DNA of 37,776 bases. It comes from Candidatus Peregrinibacteria bacterium. Its GTDB lineage: Bacteria > Patescibacteriota > Gracilibacteria > Peribacterales > Peribacteraceae. The notes below the pieces were generated by a model. That model saw only the letters and a list, made by a program, of their open reading frames with translations. It was not told the origin of the DNA and made no database searches. A program made the position numbers and the translations under genes. This document shows, in pieces, positions 12,312-37,776 of this stretch (positions are counted from its first letter, which is position 1; the number at the start of each line of letters is the position of its first letter). The DNA is taken from contig JACPYA010000081.1 in NCBI GenBank assembly GCA_016196295.1, positions 1-37,776 of the forward strand, given 5' to 3'.

Positions 12312-14498
12312 TCAATTGCCCGGGTCGCTCTGACACTGTGCCACCGATGCGACCAACGTTTCGCAGCTCTGGAGCGATTCACCGTTCGCGCAGGTATCGC
12401 TGCCGCTGTTGCCATTGAGGAAGTCGAACGCGTTGCCGCCGTCGAGCTGATCGCCGGAGGAACCCGCGACGAGGAGATCGGGATTGTTCCATCCGCAGAG
12501 GACGTCGAGCCCGTTGCCGCCGCGCAGGTCATCGCTGCCGTCGCCGCCGAAGAGCAGGTCGGTTCCGTTGCCCGCGTGGAGGATGTCATCGCCCGTTCCT
12601 CCCCGCAGCTCATCGTTGCCGTTGCCGCCGTAGAGCTTGTCGTCTCCCGCGCCGCCGCAGAGGAGGTCGTTGCCGTTGCGGCCGCGGAGCCGATCGTTGC
12701 CGGATGTCCCGACGATCACGTCGTTGCCGTTGCCGCCGTCCAGCGTACCCGTGTACGGGTCGCCGTGATCGGGACCGCCGACGATGAAGCCGCCTTGGAC
12801 ATAGACTGTCGCGTTCTGACCGTCACATTGGGGGACTGTTCCCGCGGAGGAGCTGCTCGAGACCGAGCTTGCACTCGAGCTGAGGCTGCTCGAAACGGAT
12901 GAGCCGGTGCTGCTCACAGAGGAGCTGAGCGAGCTACTGAGTGACGAGCTCACGCTGCTGCTGACAGACGAGGAACTCGAGACGCAGTTACTGACGAGAT
13001 TCTGAATATCCGCGGCGGTGAGGGCCGAGGCGTAGATGCGGACATCGTCGAGCGTGCCGTCGAAGAATCCGTCGAAGGCATTGTCATGCCTGCTGCCGAG
13101 TTCCACGTCGTTCGTGTTCGTGTTGATGGGCACCGTGAAGCTGCCGGACTTGCTGAGCGCGCCGTCGAGGTAATACCGCCACGACGTGACGCCGTCGTAG
13201 ACGAACGCCATGTGGTGCCATCCCGCTGCGGGGATCTGGCTGCCCGTGAGCGTGATGTTATTGGCACTGTTGATGCCGTCCGTGAAGAGGTAGGTGTTTC
13301 CGGCGACGGTCCCGAGCTGCAGAATGAACTTCTGCGTCCCGTCGTCGGCATTGCCGAGCGCGACGAGCGAGCCCTGCGTGCTGAGCGCATCGCGGTCTGC
13401 CCAGAGCGCGATGGTGCGTGCGGTGGCGCCCGCGGGAATGCCCGTGCTGTCCGGCACGAGGACGTAATCATTCGTCCCGTCGAGTTCCAGAGCAGAAGGA
13501 TTCGGCGTGATGGCGGGTGGCGTCGAGAGGGACCAGGTCGCGCCGTTTAAGAGCATGCCGCTGTTGTTGAACACAGTGGAATCGTGTGCGGTCAGTCCGG
13601 TGTTTTCATCCAGCTTCCAGTGCGCCACGAGCGTGCCGTTCAGGAGACACGCGGCGGACGAGGCGCTGCTGCTGAGGGAGGAGGACACGGAGCTCGAGCT
13701 GCTGCTCCCCGCATTCCCGCAGCCAGCCGCCAGCGATCCGACTTCCGCGCCGGAGAGCGGTCGCCCGTAGATGCGGATGTCATCGAGCCTGCCGTCGTAG
13801 TGCGGCTGAAGGAGATACTTGCCGAAGAGAAGATCGGAGTTCGCCGTGATGTCCCCGACCGTCGCGGTATTCGTGCCGACGAGCACGCCATCGACGTAGG
13901 TATCGATGGTGAGGGAAGCGCCGCTGCGCGTGTACACGCCCGCGACGTGATGCCACTGATCATCGAGGAGCGTGACGGCTTGCGACGTGTCGTTGATGCC
14001 GAGGTTGCCGTAACCGAAGAAGTTCACGCGGTTTGTGGAGTAGAAGTAGAGGCCCCACCCGCGGTGAGACGTGCTGAAGTTCCCGAGAAGGGAGGTCCCG
14101 CCGGTCGCCGTGCGGGCAAAGCCCGTCACGGTGAAGGAGCCGGTCCCGAACGAGAAGTCTCCGCTCTGCGCGACGCGGACTTGATCGTCCGTGCCGTCGA
14201 ACGAGAGTGCGGCGGGATTGGGGACAACAACGGGCGTGCCGGTCGTCCACGTGGGACCATTTTCGAGGGTCCCGGTGTGTCCGTTGCCGGTCGAGTCGGC
14301 CGTGGTGGTTCCGGCTCCTTCGTCGAATTTCCAATGACCGAGGAGAGCCGCGGTGCTCACCGGCGTGCACACTTGTGCGTACGCGATGCGCGAGACGGAG
14401 GAAAAGACGCGAGGCATGAGGAGCGCGGCAAGCAAAAATGCCACGGCACCCAGGGCGATGCTCTTTCTCTGGAGAAAGAGCGTTGGAGGAAGGTCCAT
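12312..14498 (-). CDS. Secreted protein with two LamG-like domains and RTX-type Ca-binding repeats
   Basis: The 728-residue extracellular protein starts with a signal segment (SIALGAVAFLLAALLMPRVFSSVSRIAYA). Two concanavalin-A-like LamG_3 domains follow (about 45-265 and 285-510), each with LxGHWKFDEGAGTTTADSTGN or VAHWKLDENTGLTAHDSTV and ending LDDIRIYGRPLS or LDDVRIYASALT. The domains are separated by Ser-rich linkers. After a longer S/V/L linker come nonapeptide repeats GGNGNDxLxGG (about 590-700), the calcium-binding parallel beta-roll of RTX proteins. The end carries two Cys (SDTCANGESLQSCE). LamG domains usually bind sugars or proteins, so a surface adhesin role is likely. Confidence 0.92.
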   Translation of the reverse strand: MDLPPTLFLQRKSIALGAVAFLLAALLMPRVFSSVSRIAYAQVCTPVSTAALLGHWKFDEGAGTTTADSTGNGHTGTLENGPTWTTGTPVVVPNPAALSFDGTDDQVRVAQSGDFSFGTGSFTVTGFARTATGGTSLLGNFSTSHRGWGLYFYSTNRVNFFGYGNLGINDTSQAVTLLDDQWHHVAGVYTRSGASLTIDTYVDGVLVGTNTATVGDITANSDLLFGKYLLQPHYDGRLDDIRIYGRPLSGAEVGSLAAGCGNAGSSSSSSVSSSLSSSASSAACLLNGTLVAHWKLDENTGLTAHDSTVFNNSGMLLNGATWSLSTPPAITPNPSALELDGTNDYVLVPDSTGIPAGATARTIALWADRDALSTQGSLVALGNADDGTQKFILQLGTVAGNTYLFTDGINSANNITLTGSQIPAAGWHHMAFVYDGVTSWRYYLDGALSKSGSFTVPINTNTNDVELGSRHDNAFDGFFDGTLDDVRIYASALTAADIQNLVSNCVSSSSSVSSSVSSSLSSSLSSSVSSTGSSVSSSLSSSASSVSSSSSAGTVPQCDGQNATVYVQGGFIVGGPDHGDPYTGTLDGGNGNDVIVGTSGNDRLRGRNGNDLLCGGAGDDKLYGGNGNDELRGGTGDDILHAGNGTDLLFGGDGSDDLRGGNGLDVLCGWNNPDLLVAGSSGDQLDGGNAFDFLNGNSGSDTCANGESLQSCETLVASVAQCQSDPGN

Positions 14499-31541: not shown

Positions 31542-32609
31542 ATGTTTACACTCGATCGAGAGACGAAAGACGGGCGACGGGGGCGGATGAAGACCGCGCA
31601 CGGCACGTTGAACACACCCGCGTTCATGCCCGTCGCGACGGCGGGAGCGATGAAGGGGATCACGCATGAGGATCTGCAAACGCTCGGCGCGGAGATCCTG
31701 CTTTGCAACAGCTACCACCTGCACCTCCAACCGGGGGAAGCGATCGTCAGAGAGGCCGGCGGACTGCATTCTTTCATCGGCTGGGACGGACCCATGCTGA
31801 CGGACTCCGGCGGATTCCAAGTGTTTTCCCTGCGCGGAATCAGTGCCATCGGTGACGAAGGCGTTCGCTTCCAATCGCACCTGAACGGCGATCCCCTCTT
31901 TCTGGGGCCGCAAGAATCGATGGATATCCAGCACACACTCGGCGCGGACATCATCATGTGTTTCGACCAGTGCCCGCCCTCCACCGCGAAGCGCGCGGAG
32001 ATACAGGCCGCAGTCGATCGCACGCTCACGTGGGCGAACGCGTGCAAGAAGGCGCATGAGCAGCATCGAAGCAGCACCGGAAGTTCCCAGATGCTCTTTG
32101 GCATCGTGCAAGGAGGGCTCGAGCGCGATCTACGCGAGAAGTGCGCGGCAGAACTGACTGCGATGGGATTTGACGGCTATGCCGTGGGAGGGCTCGCGGT
32201 CGGCGAAACTCCCGAGGAGATGTACGGCGTGCTCGACGCAGTCTGTCCCCTGCTCCCGAAAGAGGCTCCACGCTACCTGATGGGCGTCGGACGGCTGGAT
32301 CAACTGAGGGAATCGGTACGACGGGGCGTCGATATGTTCGACTGCGTGCTGCCGATGCGCGAAGCGCGTCACGGCACTGTCTATCTCGGTAACGGACAAA
32401 AAATCCGCATCATGAAGAGCGAATACCTCCATGATCACGGCGTCCTGGACCCGGAGTCTCCCTCGCCCCTCAGCCGCACGCACAAGAAGAGCTTTCTCTG
32501 CCACCTGCTGCGCGCACACGAACGTCTCGGCGAAAAGATCGCATGTATGCAAAATTTGGGCGTGACCCTCGAAACGATGCGTACGGTCCAAAAGAGAATC
32601 GCCGAGTGA
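31542..32609 (+). CDS. tgt: tRNA-guanine transglycosylase, zinc site lost
   Basis: The 355-residue TIM-barrel enzyme exchanges the queuosine precursor for G34 in GUN-anticodon tRNAs. Core motifs are intact: MPVATAGAMKGI, LTDSGGFQVFSL, IIMCFDQCPPS (catalytic Asp region), GIVQGGLERDLR, YAVGGLAVGE and the nucleophile region FDCVLPMREARHGTVY. However the zinc motif C-x-C-x2-C is S306-P-S308-P-L-S311 (DPESPSPLS), and the fourth ligand His is Gln337 (MQNL in place of the usual EHNI or IHNL). All four ligands are therefore replaced. Length is slightly below the usual 370-385. The tgt stop lies at the edge of a palindrome. Confidence 0.94.
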   Translation: MFTLDRETKDGRRGRMKTAHGTLNTPAFMPVATAGAMKGITHEDLQTLGAEILLCNSYHLHLQPGEAIVREAGGLHSFIGWDGPMLTDSGGFQVFSLRGISAIGDEGVRFQSHLNGDPLFLGPQESMDIQHTLGADIIMCFDQCPPSTAKRAEIQAAVDRTLTWANACKKAHEQHRSSTGSSQMLFGIVQGGLERDLREKCAAELTAMGFDGYAVGGLAVGETPEEMYGVLDAVCPLLPKEAPRYLMGVGRLDQLRESVRRGVDMFDCVLPMREARHGTVYLGNGQKIRIMKSEYLHDHGVLDPESPSPLSRTHKKSFLCHLLRAHERLGEKIACMQNLGVTLETMRTVQKRIAE

Positions 32610-33800: not shown

Positions 33801-33829
33801 TTGACAGAAGCCTGTTCCAGACCTATTCT
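33801..33829 (+). promoter_or_regulatory. Sigma-70 type promoter of the giant surface protein gene
   Basis: Consensus TTGACA (33801-33806), exactly 17 bases, TATTCT (33824-33829). It predicts a leader of about 47 nt before the ATG at 33883, longer than at most promoters in this window. Confidence 0.8.
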
Positions 33830-33882
33830 TGCCCTCTTTCGTCCACCTCTCTTTTACTTCGCCATTTTTTTCCAAAATTTCT

Positions 33883-36800
33883 ATGCAGCGCCAGAGATTC
33901 ATCGCCCGAGTGAGTTTGGTCGCACTGACACTCACACAATTACACGCAACAGGAGTCATCAACGTCGCACAGACGCTGATTAGTACTGCGAAAGCAGCTG
34001 CCGTTCATGCCTCATCGTTCAGCGGACAAACGAGCCCGCAGCCGGGAGCACTGCTCGTCAGCGGGCTGCGCGAAGGAGACACCGTGACCATCAGTGGGAT
34101 CAGCGGCTCAATCACGTGGCAGCAAGCCTCAGGGACGGGAGGAGCGCAGGGTGGGCTGCAGAATCCCGCGAGCTGCCGAGACGGAGCCGGCAACGGTGGA
34201 AACGACCTCATCGCCGTCGGCTATTTTGCGAATGACAACGGCACGCCATTCGGGGCCATTGCTCCCCTGAAAACATTCGACGGGGGGATTACCGTCCCGG
34301 CCGGAGCGGGCCAGATTCGCGGAGGATTTGCCGATCAGAACCCGAACGACAACAGCGGTGAATGTACGTTCAACATCACGGTCAAGGAGCGAGTGACAGA
34401 GTGCAGCGACGGCAAGGATAACGAAGGCGATGGCGCTGCCGATTTCCCCAATGATTTCAGTTGTGACAGCCCAGAGGACAATGATGAATTCAATCCGCGC
34501 CCGCAGTGCAACGATCGGGAAGACAATGACGGCGACGGAAAGCAGGATGGAAACGACCCGGGTTGCAGCAACGGCCAGGACAACAACGAAAGCGATGAGC
34601 CGAAACAAGAAGAAGCTCCTCAGAGCGCGATCCTCGCTCCTGCAAGCGACGGCCCTCCGGCTTCAGCGCAGGCTCCCGCAGGAGCATCTCGCACGTTCGC
34701 CAACAGAGGCGTGGAAGCCATTCACTTTGTGAACACGCACCCGGACTTCGCCGCGTTTTTCCACGGAGATCCGAATGACGGCATCATCCCAGGCGCAGGT
34801 TCCGTCGATGACGACCCCACGACGGCGCTGAAAGTCTGTCAGTTGGCGGGTTTCAATCATGTCGCAAGCATCCAGAACCGCGAATTTTCGAGCTGTGGCG
34901 ACAACACCATCAGCCACTGGAATGGCAACACATTCGTGGCGGTGAATGCCTGCACGGCGGGCAATCGATTCCTCGACACGCTCGTCTGCGATCAAGGGGG
35001 AACGAGCACGGCAACACAGTGCAGCGACGGCCGTGACAACGACGGTGACGGAAAAGTCGATGCAGGAGACTTCGGGTGCATCGATGGCAATGACGACAAT
35101 GAATTTGGCGAGCCATTCGGCTTCGTCGATGGCCAAGCGAACCCGAACCTCTGCAGAGTGTACGGATGGGCTTGTGACCCGGATAACTTCAACCAGCCGA
35201 TCGACGTGCACTTCTACCTGAATGGCCCTGCCGGAGGAGGAGGCACCATCATCGGGAGCGCGCGGGCGGACCGCACGCGCGATCCTGGCATCACGCAAGC
35301 CTGCGGAGGCAATGGCGCGCATGCCTTTGAATTTGATCTCCCGACAAACCTCCAGAACGGACAGACGCAGAACGTGTTCGTGCACGGCATCAACATTGGA
35401 TCACCGGCTCATAACCCGGTGCTCACAAACTCTCCTGCGAGGGTTGTCTGCAATCCACAAGCGCAGCAGGCAAATCTGACGGTCGAGAAGGTCCTCGCAG
35501 GAGGCGCTCTGACCGTGACGCCGAACCAGCCGGCGATCTACGAGATCCGCGTGACCAACGCATCAAACGTGCCTGCGCAGAATGTTATCGTCATCGAGAA
35601 CATCCCTCAGCACATGCAGTTTGTGACGGATGTCGGTGGAACCGGCTGCGCACTCACCGGCAATAACCAGGTGCAGTGCCCGGGCGTGACCATCAACCCA
35701 AATCAAACGAAGCTGTACCAACTCAAGTTCATGCCGGCGGCATCGGCTCCCTGTGGGGGAACGATCCGCAATCAAGTCGATGTGCAATCGGGCAACGCGC
35801 CGTTCGTCTGGGATGACTTCAATGCGACGGTGCAATGTCAGTCAAACCGCATTCCGACCGGATCCATCGATGTGGGAAACTGCCAAGAGATCGCCGGATG
35901 GACATGCGATCAGGACGTTCCGAATAACCCCCTCGACGTTCATTTCTACGTAAACGCCTCCGCGTATAACGGCGGCACAATCATCGGAAACACCCTCGCA
36001 AACCTGCCACGCGAACCGCAGGTTGGACAGACCTGTGGCGGCAACAGTGCCCACGGCTTCTCGTTCCCGATCCCCGCGAACCTGAAGGATGGTCAAAATC
36101 ACACGATCTTCGTCCACCCCATCAACCAGCCATCGGGTGACAATCCTCATCTGAATCCGCCCATCACCATCAACTGTCCGGCTCCGGGCACTACGGTGAC
36201 CGTCGAGAAGGTCCTCGCGGGAGGAGCTCTGACCGTGACGCCGAACCAGCCGGCGATCTACGAGATCCGGGTGCGAAACACAGGGACCATCGCGGCGCAG
36301 AACGTCGTTGTGATTGAGAACATTCCGCAGCACATGAACTTCGTCGCAGACGTCGGAGGGACAAACTGTTCGATAAACGCGAGCAATCAAGTGCAGTGTC
36401 CCGGTGTGACGCTGAACCCCGGCGAGACGAAGTTGTATCAATTGAAACTCATGCCGACGGCGACAGCCCCGTGCGGACAGACGATCCGAAACCAAGTGGA
36501 TGTCCAGAGCTCGAATGCGCCGTTCGTGTGGGATGACTTCTCTGCCACCGTGCAGTGTGCGCCGAGCAACCAACCTCCCATCGGACACCTGGATGGAAGC
36601 AACTGCGAAGTGCTCATTGGATGGGCGTGTGATGCCGATAACTTCGCAGGACCGATCGATGTCCATTTGTATAACGGTCCCGCGGGACAGGGTGGACAGA
36701 TCGTCGGTTCGATCACGGCCAACGCGCCGCGTGAAGCCGCGGTCGGTCAGCAGTGTGGCGGAAATGTAAACCATGGATTTAACTTCCCCGTTCCGGCATC

Positions 36801-37776
36801 TCTGAAAGACGGCCAACCGCATCAAATCTTCGCATACGCCATCAATACGCCCGCGGGCAGCAATCCTCCTATCGGCAATGTTCCTTTGACGATCACATGT
36901 GCCGCTGCGCAAACGAACCTGACGGTTGAGAAAGTCCTAGCGGGAGGGGCAACCACGGTGTCGCCGAACCAGCCTGCGATCTACGAGATCCGCGTGCGAA
37001 ACACGGGCACCATCGCGGCGCAGAACGTCGTCGTGATTGAGAATATCCCGCAGCACATGCAGTTCATCACCGATGTCGGAGGCACGAACTGCACCGTGAA
37101 CAACAGCAACCAGGTGCAGTGCCCTGCGATCACATTGAATCCGGGCGAAACGAAGCTCTACCAACTGAAATTCATGCCGGTTGCCAGCGCTCCGTGCGGC
37201 CAACAGGTCCGCAACCAAGTAGATGTGCAATCGACGAATGCGCCGTTCGTGTGGGATGACTTCAATGCCACGGTCAGCTGCCAGCAAGCGACGCTCATCG
37301 TGGAGAAGACCGTGCAAGGCGGGGCCGCGAGCGGGGCTGTCGGCCAGCCGATCTTCTATAACGTCCGCGTCCAGAACACGGGCACGGGACCGGCCAATAA
37401 CGTCGTGCTCCTCGATAACGTCCCGCAGCACCTGAGCTTCGTGCAAGGTGGCAGCACCGCAGGATGCACGGAGGCGAACGGACAAGTCCAATGCAACCTG
37501 AATACGATCGCTGCAAGCGCGACCGCGAACGTCACGCTGAAGTTCATGGTGAACCAGTCGGCGACCGCTCTCTGCGGCCAGCAACTGCGAAACCAAGTCG
37601 ATATCACTTCGACGAATGCGCCGTTTGTCTGGGACGACGTGAACGTCACGATCCAATGCAACCAACCTCCCATCGGACACCTGGATGGAAGCAACTGCGA
37701 AGTGCTCATTGGATGGGCGTGTGATGCCGATAACTTCGCAGGACCGATCGATGTCCATTTGTATAACGGTCCCGCG
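33883..37776 (+). CDS. Giant secreted DUF11-repeat surface protein (3' end outside window)
   Basis: An uninterrupted frame of 1298 codons runs off the window end. The N-terminus (MQRQRFIARVSLVALTLTQL, about 45 residues to AAAVHA) looks like a signal peptide. Three acidic ECSDGKDNEGDGAADFPNDF-type repeats follow (about 170-235 and 380-405), resembling calcium-binding thrombospondin type-3 units. Then two modules alternate: a 'GWACDPDNF..PIDVHFY...CGGN..HGF.F.iP..L.DGQ' module (four copies, last one cut) and a DUF11 module (VEKVLAGGALTVTPNQPAIY; AQNVVVIENIPQHM; four copies, two in a row near the end). DUF11 repeats form extended stalks on bacterial and archaeal surfaces. Likely an adhesin or S-layer-type protein. 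Confidence 0.93.
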   Translation, partial: MQRQRFIARVSLVALTLTQLHATGVINVAQTLISTAKAAAVHASSFSGQTSPQPGALLVSGLREGDTVTISGISGSITWQQASGTGGAQGGLQNPASCRDGAGNGGNDLIAVGYFANDNGTPFGAIAPLKTFDGGITVPAGAGQIRGGFADQNPNDNSGECTFNITVKERVTECSDGKDNEGDGAADFPNDFSCDSPEDNDEFNPRPQCNDREDNDGDGKQDGNDPGCSNGQDNNESDEPKQEEAPQSAILAPASDGPPASAQAPAGASRTFANRGVEAIHFVNTHPDFAAFFHGDPNDGIIPGAGSVDDDPTTALKVCQLAGFNHVASIQNREFSSCGDNTISHWNGNTFVAVNACTAGNRFLDTLVCDQGGTSTATQCSDGRDNDGDGKVDAGDFGCIDGNDDNEFGEPFGFVDGQANPNLCRVYGWACDPDNFNQPIDVHFYLNGPAGGGGTIIGSARADRTRDPGITQACGGNGAHAFEFDLPTNLQNGQTQNVFVHGINIGSPAHNPVLTNSPARVVCNPQAQQANLTVEKVLAGGALTVTPNQPAIYEIRVTNASNVPAQNVIVIENIPQHMQFVTDVGGTGCALTGNNQVQCPGVTINPNQTKLYQLKFMPAASAPCGGTIRNQVDVQSGNAPFVWDDFNATVQCQSNRIPTGSIDVGNCQEIAGWTCDQDVPNNPLDVHFYVNASAYNGGTIIGNTLANLPREPQVGQTCGGNSAHGFSFPIPANLKDGQNHTIFVHPINQPSGDNPHLNPPITINCPAPGTTVTVEKVLAGGALTVTPNQPAIYEIRVRNTGTIAAQNVVVIENIPQHMNFVADVGGTNCSINASNQVQCPGVTLNPGETKLYQLKLMPTATAPCGQTIRNQVDVQSSNAPFVWDDFSATVQCAPSNQPPIGHLDGSNCEVLIGWACDADNFAGPIDVHLYNGPAGQGGQIVGSITANAPREAAVGQQCGGNVNHGFNFPVPASLKDGQPHQIFAYAINTPAGSNPPIGNVPLTITCAAAQTNLTVEKVLAGGATTVSPNQPAIYEIRVRNTGTIAAQNVVVIENIPQHMQFITDVGGTNCTVNNSNQVQCPAITLNPGETKLYQLKFMPVASAPCGQQVRNQVDVQSTNAPFVWDDFNATVSCQQATLIVEKTVQGGAASGAVGQPIFYNVRVQNTGTGPANNVVLLDNVPQHLSFVQGGSTAGCTEANGQVQCNLNTIAASATANVTLKFMVNQSATALCGQQLRNQVDITSTNAPFVWDDVNVTIQCNQPPIGHLDGSNCEVLIGWACDADNFAGPIDVHLYNGPA
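36566..36684 (+). repeat. 119-bp perfect direct repeat, first copy
   Basis: These 119 bases, encoding the start of a GWACD module in the giant gene, are identical to 37658-37776. The period is 1092 bases (364 codons), so the frame is kept. Confidence 0.95.
37658..37776 (+). repeat. 119-bp perfect direct repeat, second copy (cut by window end)
   Basis: Identical to 36566-36684 up to the last base of the window, so the true repeat may be longer. Identity at synonymous positions points to recent duplication or gene conversion within the gene. Confidence 0.95.

Follow-up and report, generated by a model that had tools for sequence, protein, structure and literature searches.

A bacterial tRNA-guanine transglycosylase without zinc ligands in Candidatus Peribacteria

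Can a tRNA-guanine transglycosylase (Tgt) work without its structural zinc? In the TGT superfamily the zinc site counts as a hallmark, and ligand mutants of the Escherichia coli enzyme lose activity. That enzyme is a zinc metalloprotein (Chong et al. 1995, as cited in PMC9508795). Human QTRT1 and mouse QTRT2 retain the site (PMC6165067), and even the catalytically divergent eukaryotic subunit has kept its zinc residues (PMC4425180). The question is raised by one gene in a stretch of 37,776 nucleotides from a Candidatus Peregrinibacteria genome (the window). The original prediction held that all four ligands of its product were replaced, and that the enzyme is zinc-independent as the result of a selected change.

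The window is a contig (C45) of a 1.13 Mb genome in 84 contigs that is 85.7% complete. The tgt gene lies at 31542..32609 on the + strand and encodes 355 amino acids in an intact reading frame. The product scores 427 bits against Pfam TGT and 419 bits against the TIGR00430 equivalog model, above the curated cut-off of 306.75, and its best PDB matches are bacterial TGTs, the E. coli and Zymomonas mobilis enzymes among them. The closest named relatives are Candidatus Peribacteria/Peregrinibacteria, with identities of up to 72%. A search of the genome's contigs found one Tgt gene and no zinc-type paralogue. Elsewhere in the window, an open frame of at least 1316 amino acids with repeated DUF11 domains (33829-37776, +) runs to the window end, and the product of 12315-14498 (-), in which laminin-G-like domains occur together with RTX calcium-binding repeats, is likely a surface or secreted protein.

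The protein is about 45% identical to E. coli Tgt and has what defines bacterial Tgt (TIGR00430; the E. coli and Z. mobilis enzymes, PDB 10fb, 1pud and others): the fold, the catalytic aspartates, the base pocket and the tRNA-contact arginines. Asp88 (31803..31805, +; E. coli D89, the general acid/base), Asp142 (31965..31967, +; D143, base recognition) and Asp267 (32340..32342, +; D264, the nucleophile) are all kept in the alignment, as are R273 and R276. The pocket is of the preQ1 type: GGLAVGE, matching GG(L/V)(A/S)VGE, together with C144. It thus has Val and Cys rather than the eukaryotic Gly and Val, a pair of positions that we take to set specificity. The catalytic and substrate motifs are therefore intact, as had been claimed.

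The zinc site is different. Bacterial Tgt carries C-x-C-x2-C and a His as zinc ligands, a feature typical of the family that stands outside the curated TIGR00430 cut-off; the window Tgt has Ser, Ser, Ser and Gln in their place. Alignment to E. coli Tgt places C302, C304, C307 and H333 opposite S306, S308, S311 and Q337, which confirms the residue numbers first given. Ser306 (32457..32459, +, TCT) is Ser in 55/55 sequences of the window's family, and the following Pro307 (32460..32462, +; E. coli 303) is Pro in 52/55. Ser308 (32463..32465, +, TCG) stands where the family has 48 Ser, 5 Ala and 2 Val, Ser311 (32472..32474, +, AGC) where it has 48 Ser and 7 Gly. Gln337 (32550..32552, +, CAA) is Gln in 55/55; the end coordinate first given for the feature, 32540, stops 10 bases short of this codon. 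Hence the protein is a zinc-site-less variant of bacterial Tgt and not a zinc-type Tgt.

The family sample comprises 55 distinct complete Tgt sequences of the window's family (Peribacteria), drawn from two sequence collections. All 55 follow the pattern S-x-[SAV]-x-x-[SG]...Q, with Ser302 and Gln333 (E. coli numbering, as in the rest of this paragraph) invariant, while the zinc-type comparison set has the ligand state CCCH in 173 sequences. The former Cys302 codon is TCN throughout and the former Cys307 codon mostly AGY, consistent with a one-base Cys-to-Ser change at each site. Asp299 (55/55) and Arg308 (51/55) are conserved as well. The helix opposite the former site, residues 328-334 of the window Tgt (32523..32543, +), carries the family-diagnostic Arg328, Glu331 and Ala334, which correspond to Arg324 (55/55), Glu327 (53/55) and Ala330 (55/55); Thr328 is found in 52/55 sequences and is Lys in the window. 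These four helix residues distinguish the family from most zinc-type Tgt, in which positions 324 and 327 are mostly other, largely hydrophobic residues. One record titled Kiritimatiellales (L052) has a Tgt that is 62% identical to the window's and carries the family signature; it is probably a mislabelled or mixed bin.

Family Tgt is under purifying selection. The sole close pair (L023-L069) gives a pN/pS of 0.18, and pairs with the window Tgt give 0.24-0.35, near saturation, synonymous divergence in the family being mostly saturated.

Constraint bears directly on one rival, in which Tgt is on its way out of these reduced genomes and the zinc site, as its least essential part, went first. The gene has probably been lost repeatedly within the family. 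It was not found in seven genomes (G001, G006, G016, G126, G194, G227 and G256) and interrupted in two more (G002, in L098 and L134, and G031, in L135), several of these being more than 97% complete. Tgt is thus dispensable in some members, and the scarcity of queuosine genes described below (QueA in 11/36 family genomes, QueG and QueH in none) fits the same picture. However, where the gene is present its catalytic and pocket residues are retained, substitution is purifying, the replacement residues are themselves near-invariant and new diagnostic residues arose around the former site. We consider such relaxed constraint unlikely.

The original prediction had proposed structure prediction as a check, and AlphaFold2, given 45 aligned sequences, keeps the former zinc subdomain. 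Mean pLDDT is 92.8 for the whole window Tgt and 94-97 over residues 301-355, which contain the former site, a confidence that is no proof of stability without the metal. The model has a TM score of 0.95 to Z. mobilis TGT and is predicted to form the TIM barrel and the C-terminal subdomain. L078, which represents an independent loss (LDNH), reaches a pLDDT of 91.9.

If the metal is gone, the surrounding residues may show how the site is held. We scanned all columns of the family alignment for residues that go along with Ala/Val at 304 or with Gly at 307 (E. coli numbering), and the top column for both is residue 332, the neighbour of the former His333. Leu332 accompanies Ala/Val at 304 in 6/7 sequences as against 1/48 of the others, Ser332 accompanies Gly at 307 in 5/7 as against 0/48, and Ser or Thr at 306 accompanies Ala/Val at 304 in 6/7 as against 0/48; these counts reflect few events shared by related sequences, with three supported independent pairs and a sign test that is not significant. 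Asp305 and Lys332 occur together in 8/8 sequences, at two places on the tree. The pattern is suggestive only: the loop may still pack on the same helix, with lost hydroxyls replaced nearby. The special role that the original prediction gave to the Pro/Ser turn is plausible, given Pro303 in 52/55 family sequences.

The subdomain might instead be stabilised from outside, by a partner, be it a second Tgt protomer whose interface has changed or a different protein, or by some other ligand. In characterised TGT the C-terminal zinc subdomain forms part of the dimer interface (PMC4425180). Several residues around the subdomain have changed in the family, which would suit an altered interface. Yet Tyr314 and His317 (E. 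coli numbering), presumably the equivalents of the Z. mobilis interface residues Tyr330 and His333, are largely kept, and the window's genome has no second Tgt gene. Such outside stabilisation seems to us improbable, to about the same degree as relaxed constraint.

Still less probable is a general zinc economy, in which Tgt would be one of many proteins shedding zinc. Zinc-free ribosomal-protein paralogues are known to come into use when zinc is limiting (PMC5912738, PMC5007448). But the zinc ribbon of RpoC is kept (CFC...CEKC), the zinc finger of DNA ligase (LigA) is kept in 35/36 family genomes, the window's included, and the window's genome offers no zinc-type Tgt paralogue as an alternative. 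As far as these two controls show, zinc was lost from Tgt specifically. Finally, an artefact of sequencing, assembly or alignment, for which only the fragmented assembly speaks, has next to no probability: the frame is intact and the same residues recur across independent assemblies, in 55 distinct sequences of the family, which excludes the sequencing error that the original prediction had named as its refutation.

We favour a zinc-independent, structurally compensated and working bacterial Tgt, and regard this reading as likely. Comparison gives good support to the selected, zinc-independent enzyme of the original prediction through clade-wide invariance, retained catalytic residues, a confident fold and covariation across the former site. 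Against this reading stand the zinc residues that even the catalytically inactive eukaryotic subunit retains (PMC4425180, PMC6165067), and the lack or interruption of the gene in several members of the family.

Under the zinc-independent reading, the four ligands would have become Ser, Ser, Ser and Gln in the ancestor of the family, probably one shared with the sister lineage to which L073 belongs, and each replacement lies within reach of a one-base change. The loop and the helix once clamped by zinc would now be joined by polar and packing contacts, with the Ser hydroxyls, the Gln amide, a Pro-stiffened loop and the new Arg and Glu on the helix as holding elements. Family Tgt would contain no metal, a hydrogen-bond network would take the place of zinc, and base exchange at G34 of tRNAs with GUN anticodons would be retained.

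Did zinc loss happen only here? Outside the family, Tgt of the same class has the state CCCH in 81 distinct sequences and has lost ligands in 23. Elsewhere in the phylum, with one sequence per family, CCCH is found in 55/60 and loss in 5/60, a rate that may be an underestimate because the 60 were drawn from the higher-scoring entries of the list. In the 36 named non-CPR loci that we read the state is always CCCH, as it is in E. coli; this non-CPR sample is small and rich in Chloroflexi. Sequences without the zinc site come from CPR or group with CPR. Their states outside the family are diverse: AGSH, [FYL]TSH, [VI][HC]SH, VSSH, CLLH, L-GN, DNIH, DNTN, DETN, NILQ, SSCH, LDNH, LASQ, SILQ, NCSH, QDTA, --LN and CQ-N.

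The original prediction had asked whether an alignment of Tgt across CPR phyla would show a single loss; the trees point to many. With the zinc-site columns left out, we built one tree with FastTree (239 sequences) and a quick one with IQ-TREE (102 sequences). Neither can be explained with fewer than 14 changes of zinc-site state, a count that holds for these trees, in which some splits are modestly supported and several losses each appear in just one metagenome-derived sequence. An AU test rejects a single origin (p = 3.5e-51, with the group defined by the trait itself). Judged from these sequences, zinc-site loss is recurrent in CPR and family-wide in Peribacteria. The count alone cannot tell loss from gain; E. 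coli, eukaryotes and the other phyla likewise have CCCH, which would make loss the direction.

Nor is a coordinated loss of all four ligands demonstrated, since partial states (SSCH, ICSH, VSSH, NCSH, DNIH) exist elsewhere. Where the His is lost it is mostly replaced by Asn or Gln, and partly lost sites usually retain it, so the Cys residues were probably lost first. The partial states in other lineages suggest a stepwise loss with His usually last. One Tgt (L016, from G052) has S-x-S-P-x-C and the His (SSCH) and may represent a midway stage of a change like that in the window Tgt.

A broader reading we hold tentatively, at somewhat less than an even chance. Zinc in CPR Tgt may be disposable, shed about a dozen times or more and stepwise, with His last and often turned into Asn or Gln. 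The Peribacteria enzyme would then have, in place of the zinc, a dedicated core of hydrogen bonds and salt bridges that evolves as a coupled unit, and CPR Tgt would form a natural series from zinc-bound to fully metal-free.

What would such an enzyme make? The window's genome has genes for the substrate tRNAs tRNA-His(GTG), tRNA-Tyr(GTA) and tRNA-Asp(GTC); tRNA-Asn was not found in this incomplete assembly. QueA, QueG, QueH, YhhQ/Vut_1 and a convincing QueF were not found either in this genome (G000, about 86% complete), whose gaps could hide them. Weak QueF matches of about 20-30 bits, covering the first 60 positions only, were set aside as the related GTP cyclohydrolase fold. With these genes undetected, Q34 is not the expected product in this organism, and preQ1-tRNA or a salvaged 7-deazaguanine is likelier than de novo queuosine. 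Hence a lack of Q-modified tRNA, which the original prediction counted towards its refutation, would not refute activity.

Among 36 family genomes, QueA occurs in 11, YhhQ in 18, and QueG and QueH in none. Many near-complete family genomes have Tgt and YhhQ without QueA, a combination that points to salvage. From the known pathway, the end product in the family is likely preQ1-tRNA or a salvaged base, or else epoxyqueuosine in those genomes that have QueA. That zinc loss simply followed from the loss of QueA is unsupported: in the 11 family genomes with QueA, 10/10 readable Tgt are zinc-less. Elsewhere in the class, G037 combines a zinc-less Tgt (AGSH) with QueA and QueG, and thus zinc loss can coexist with the remaining pathway.

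Some other Tgt keep the zinc site and have an altered base pocket: L242, L262, L266, L260, L264, L267, L269, L270 and L292, from CPR outside the class, and L218 and L220 of f22. In these proteins GGLAVGE is replaced (GGESIGYN, GGETIGYN, GGSF[AS], GGVFVADG, GGNMYTFGQ; LRIE/LKIE); the replacements suggest a changed base specificity.

Our literature search, of partial coverage, returned no paper joining TGT or queuosine with zinc loss in CPR or Patescibacteria, and none on a zinc-less TGT or on the adenylate kinase precedent mentioned below. Many parallel losses with intermediates offer a test case for the purpose of a structural zinc and for the ways in which a protein can substitute for it. It is unsafe to judge by the zinc ligands whether a Tgt is functional, and in many CPR bacteria the end product may be preQ1 or another base.

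How does the window Tgt compare with known systems? Eukaryotic QTRT1 and QTRT2 share its superfamily and its C-terminal subdomain, but both keep zinc, even the catalytically inactive QTRT2 (PMC6165067, PMC4425180), whereas the window Tgt lacks the ligands. The zinc-free ribosomal paralogues (C- forms of bL31, bL36 and others) are alike in that Cys ligands are replaced and the homologue still functions. They are second copies for zinc limitation, however, while the zinc-less Tgt is the only copy and fixed in its lineage. The LID domain of adenylate kinase exists in a zinc-Cys4 form and in a hydrogen-bond tetrad form, so that a set of side chains replaces a structural zinc in part of that family. 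There the alternative is structurally known; in the window Tgt a comparable replacement of zinc is what we infer.
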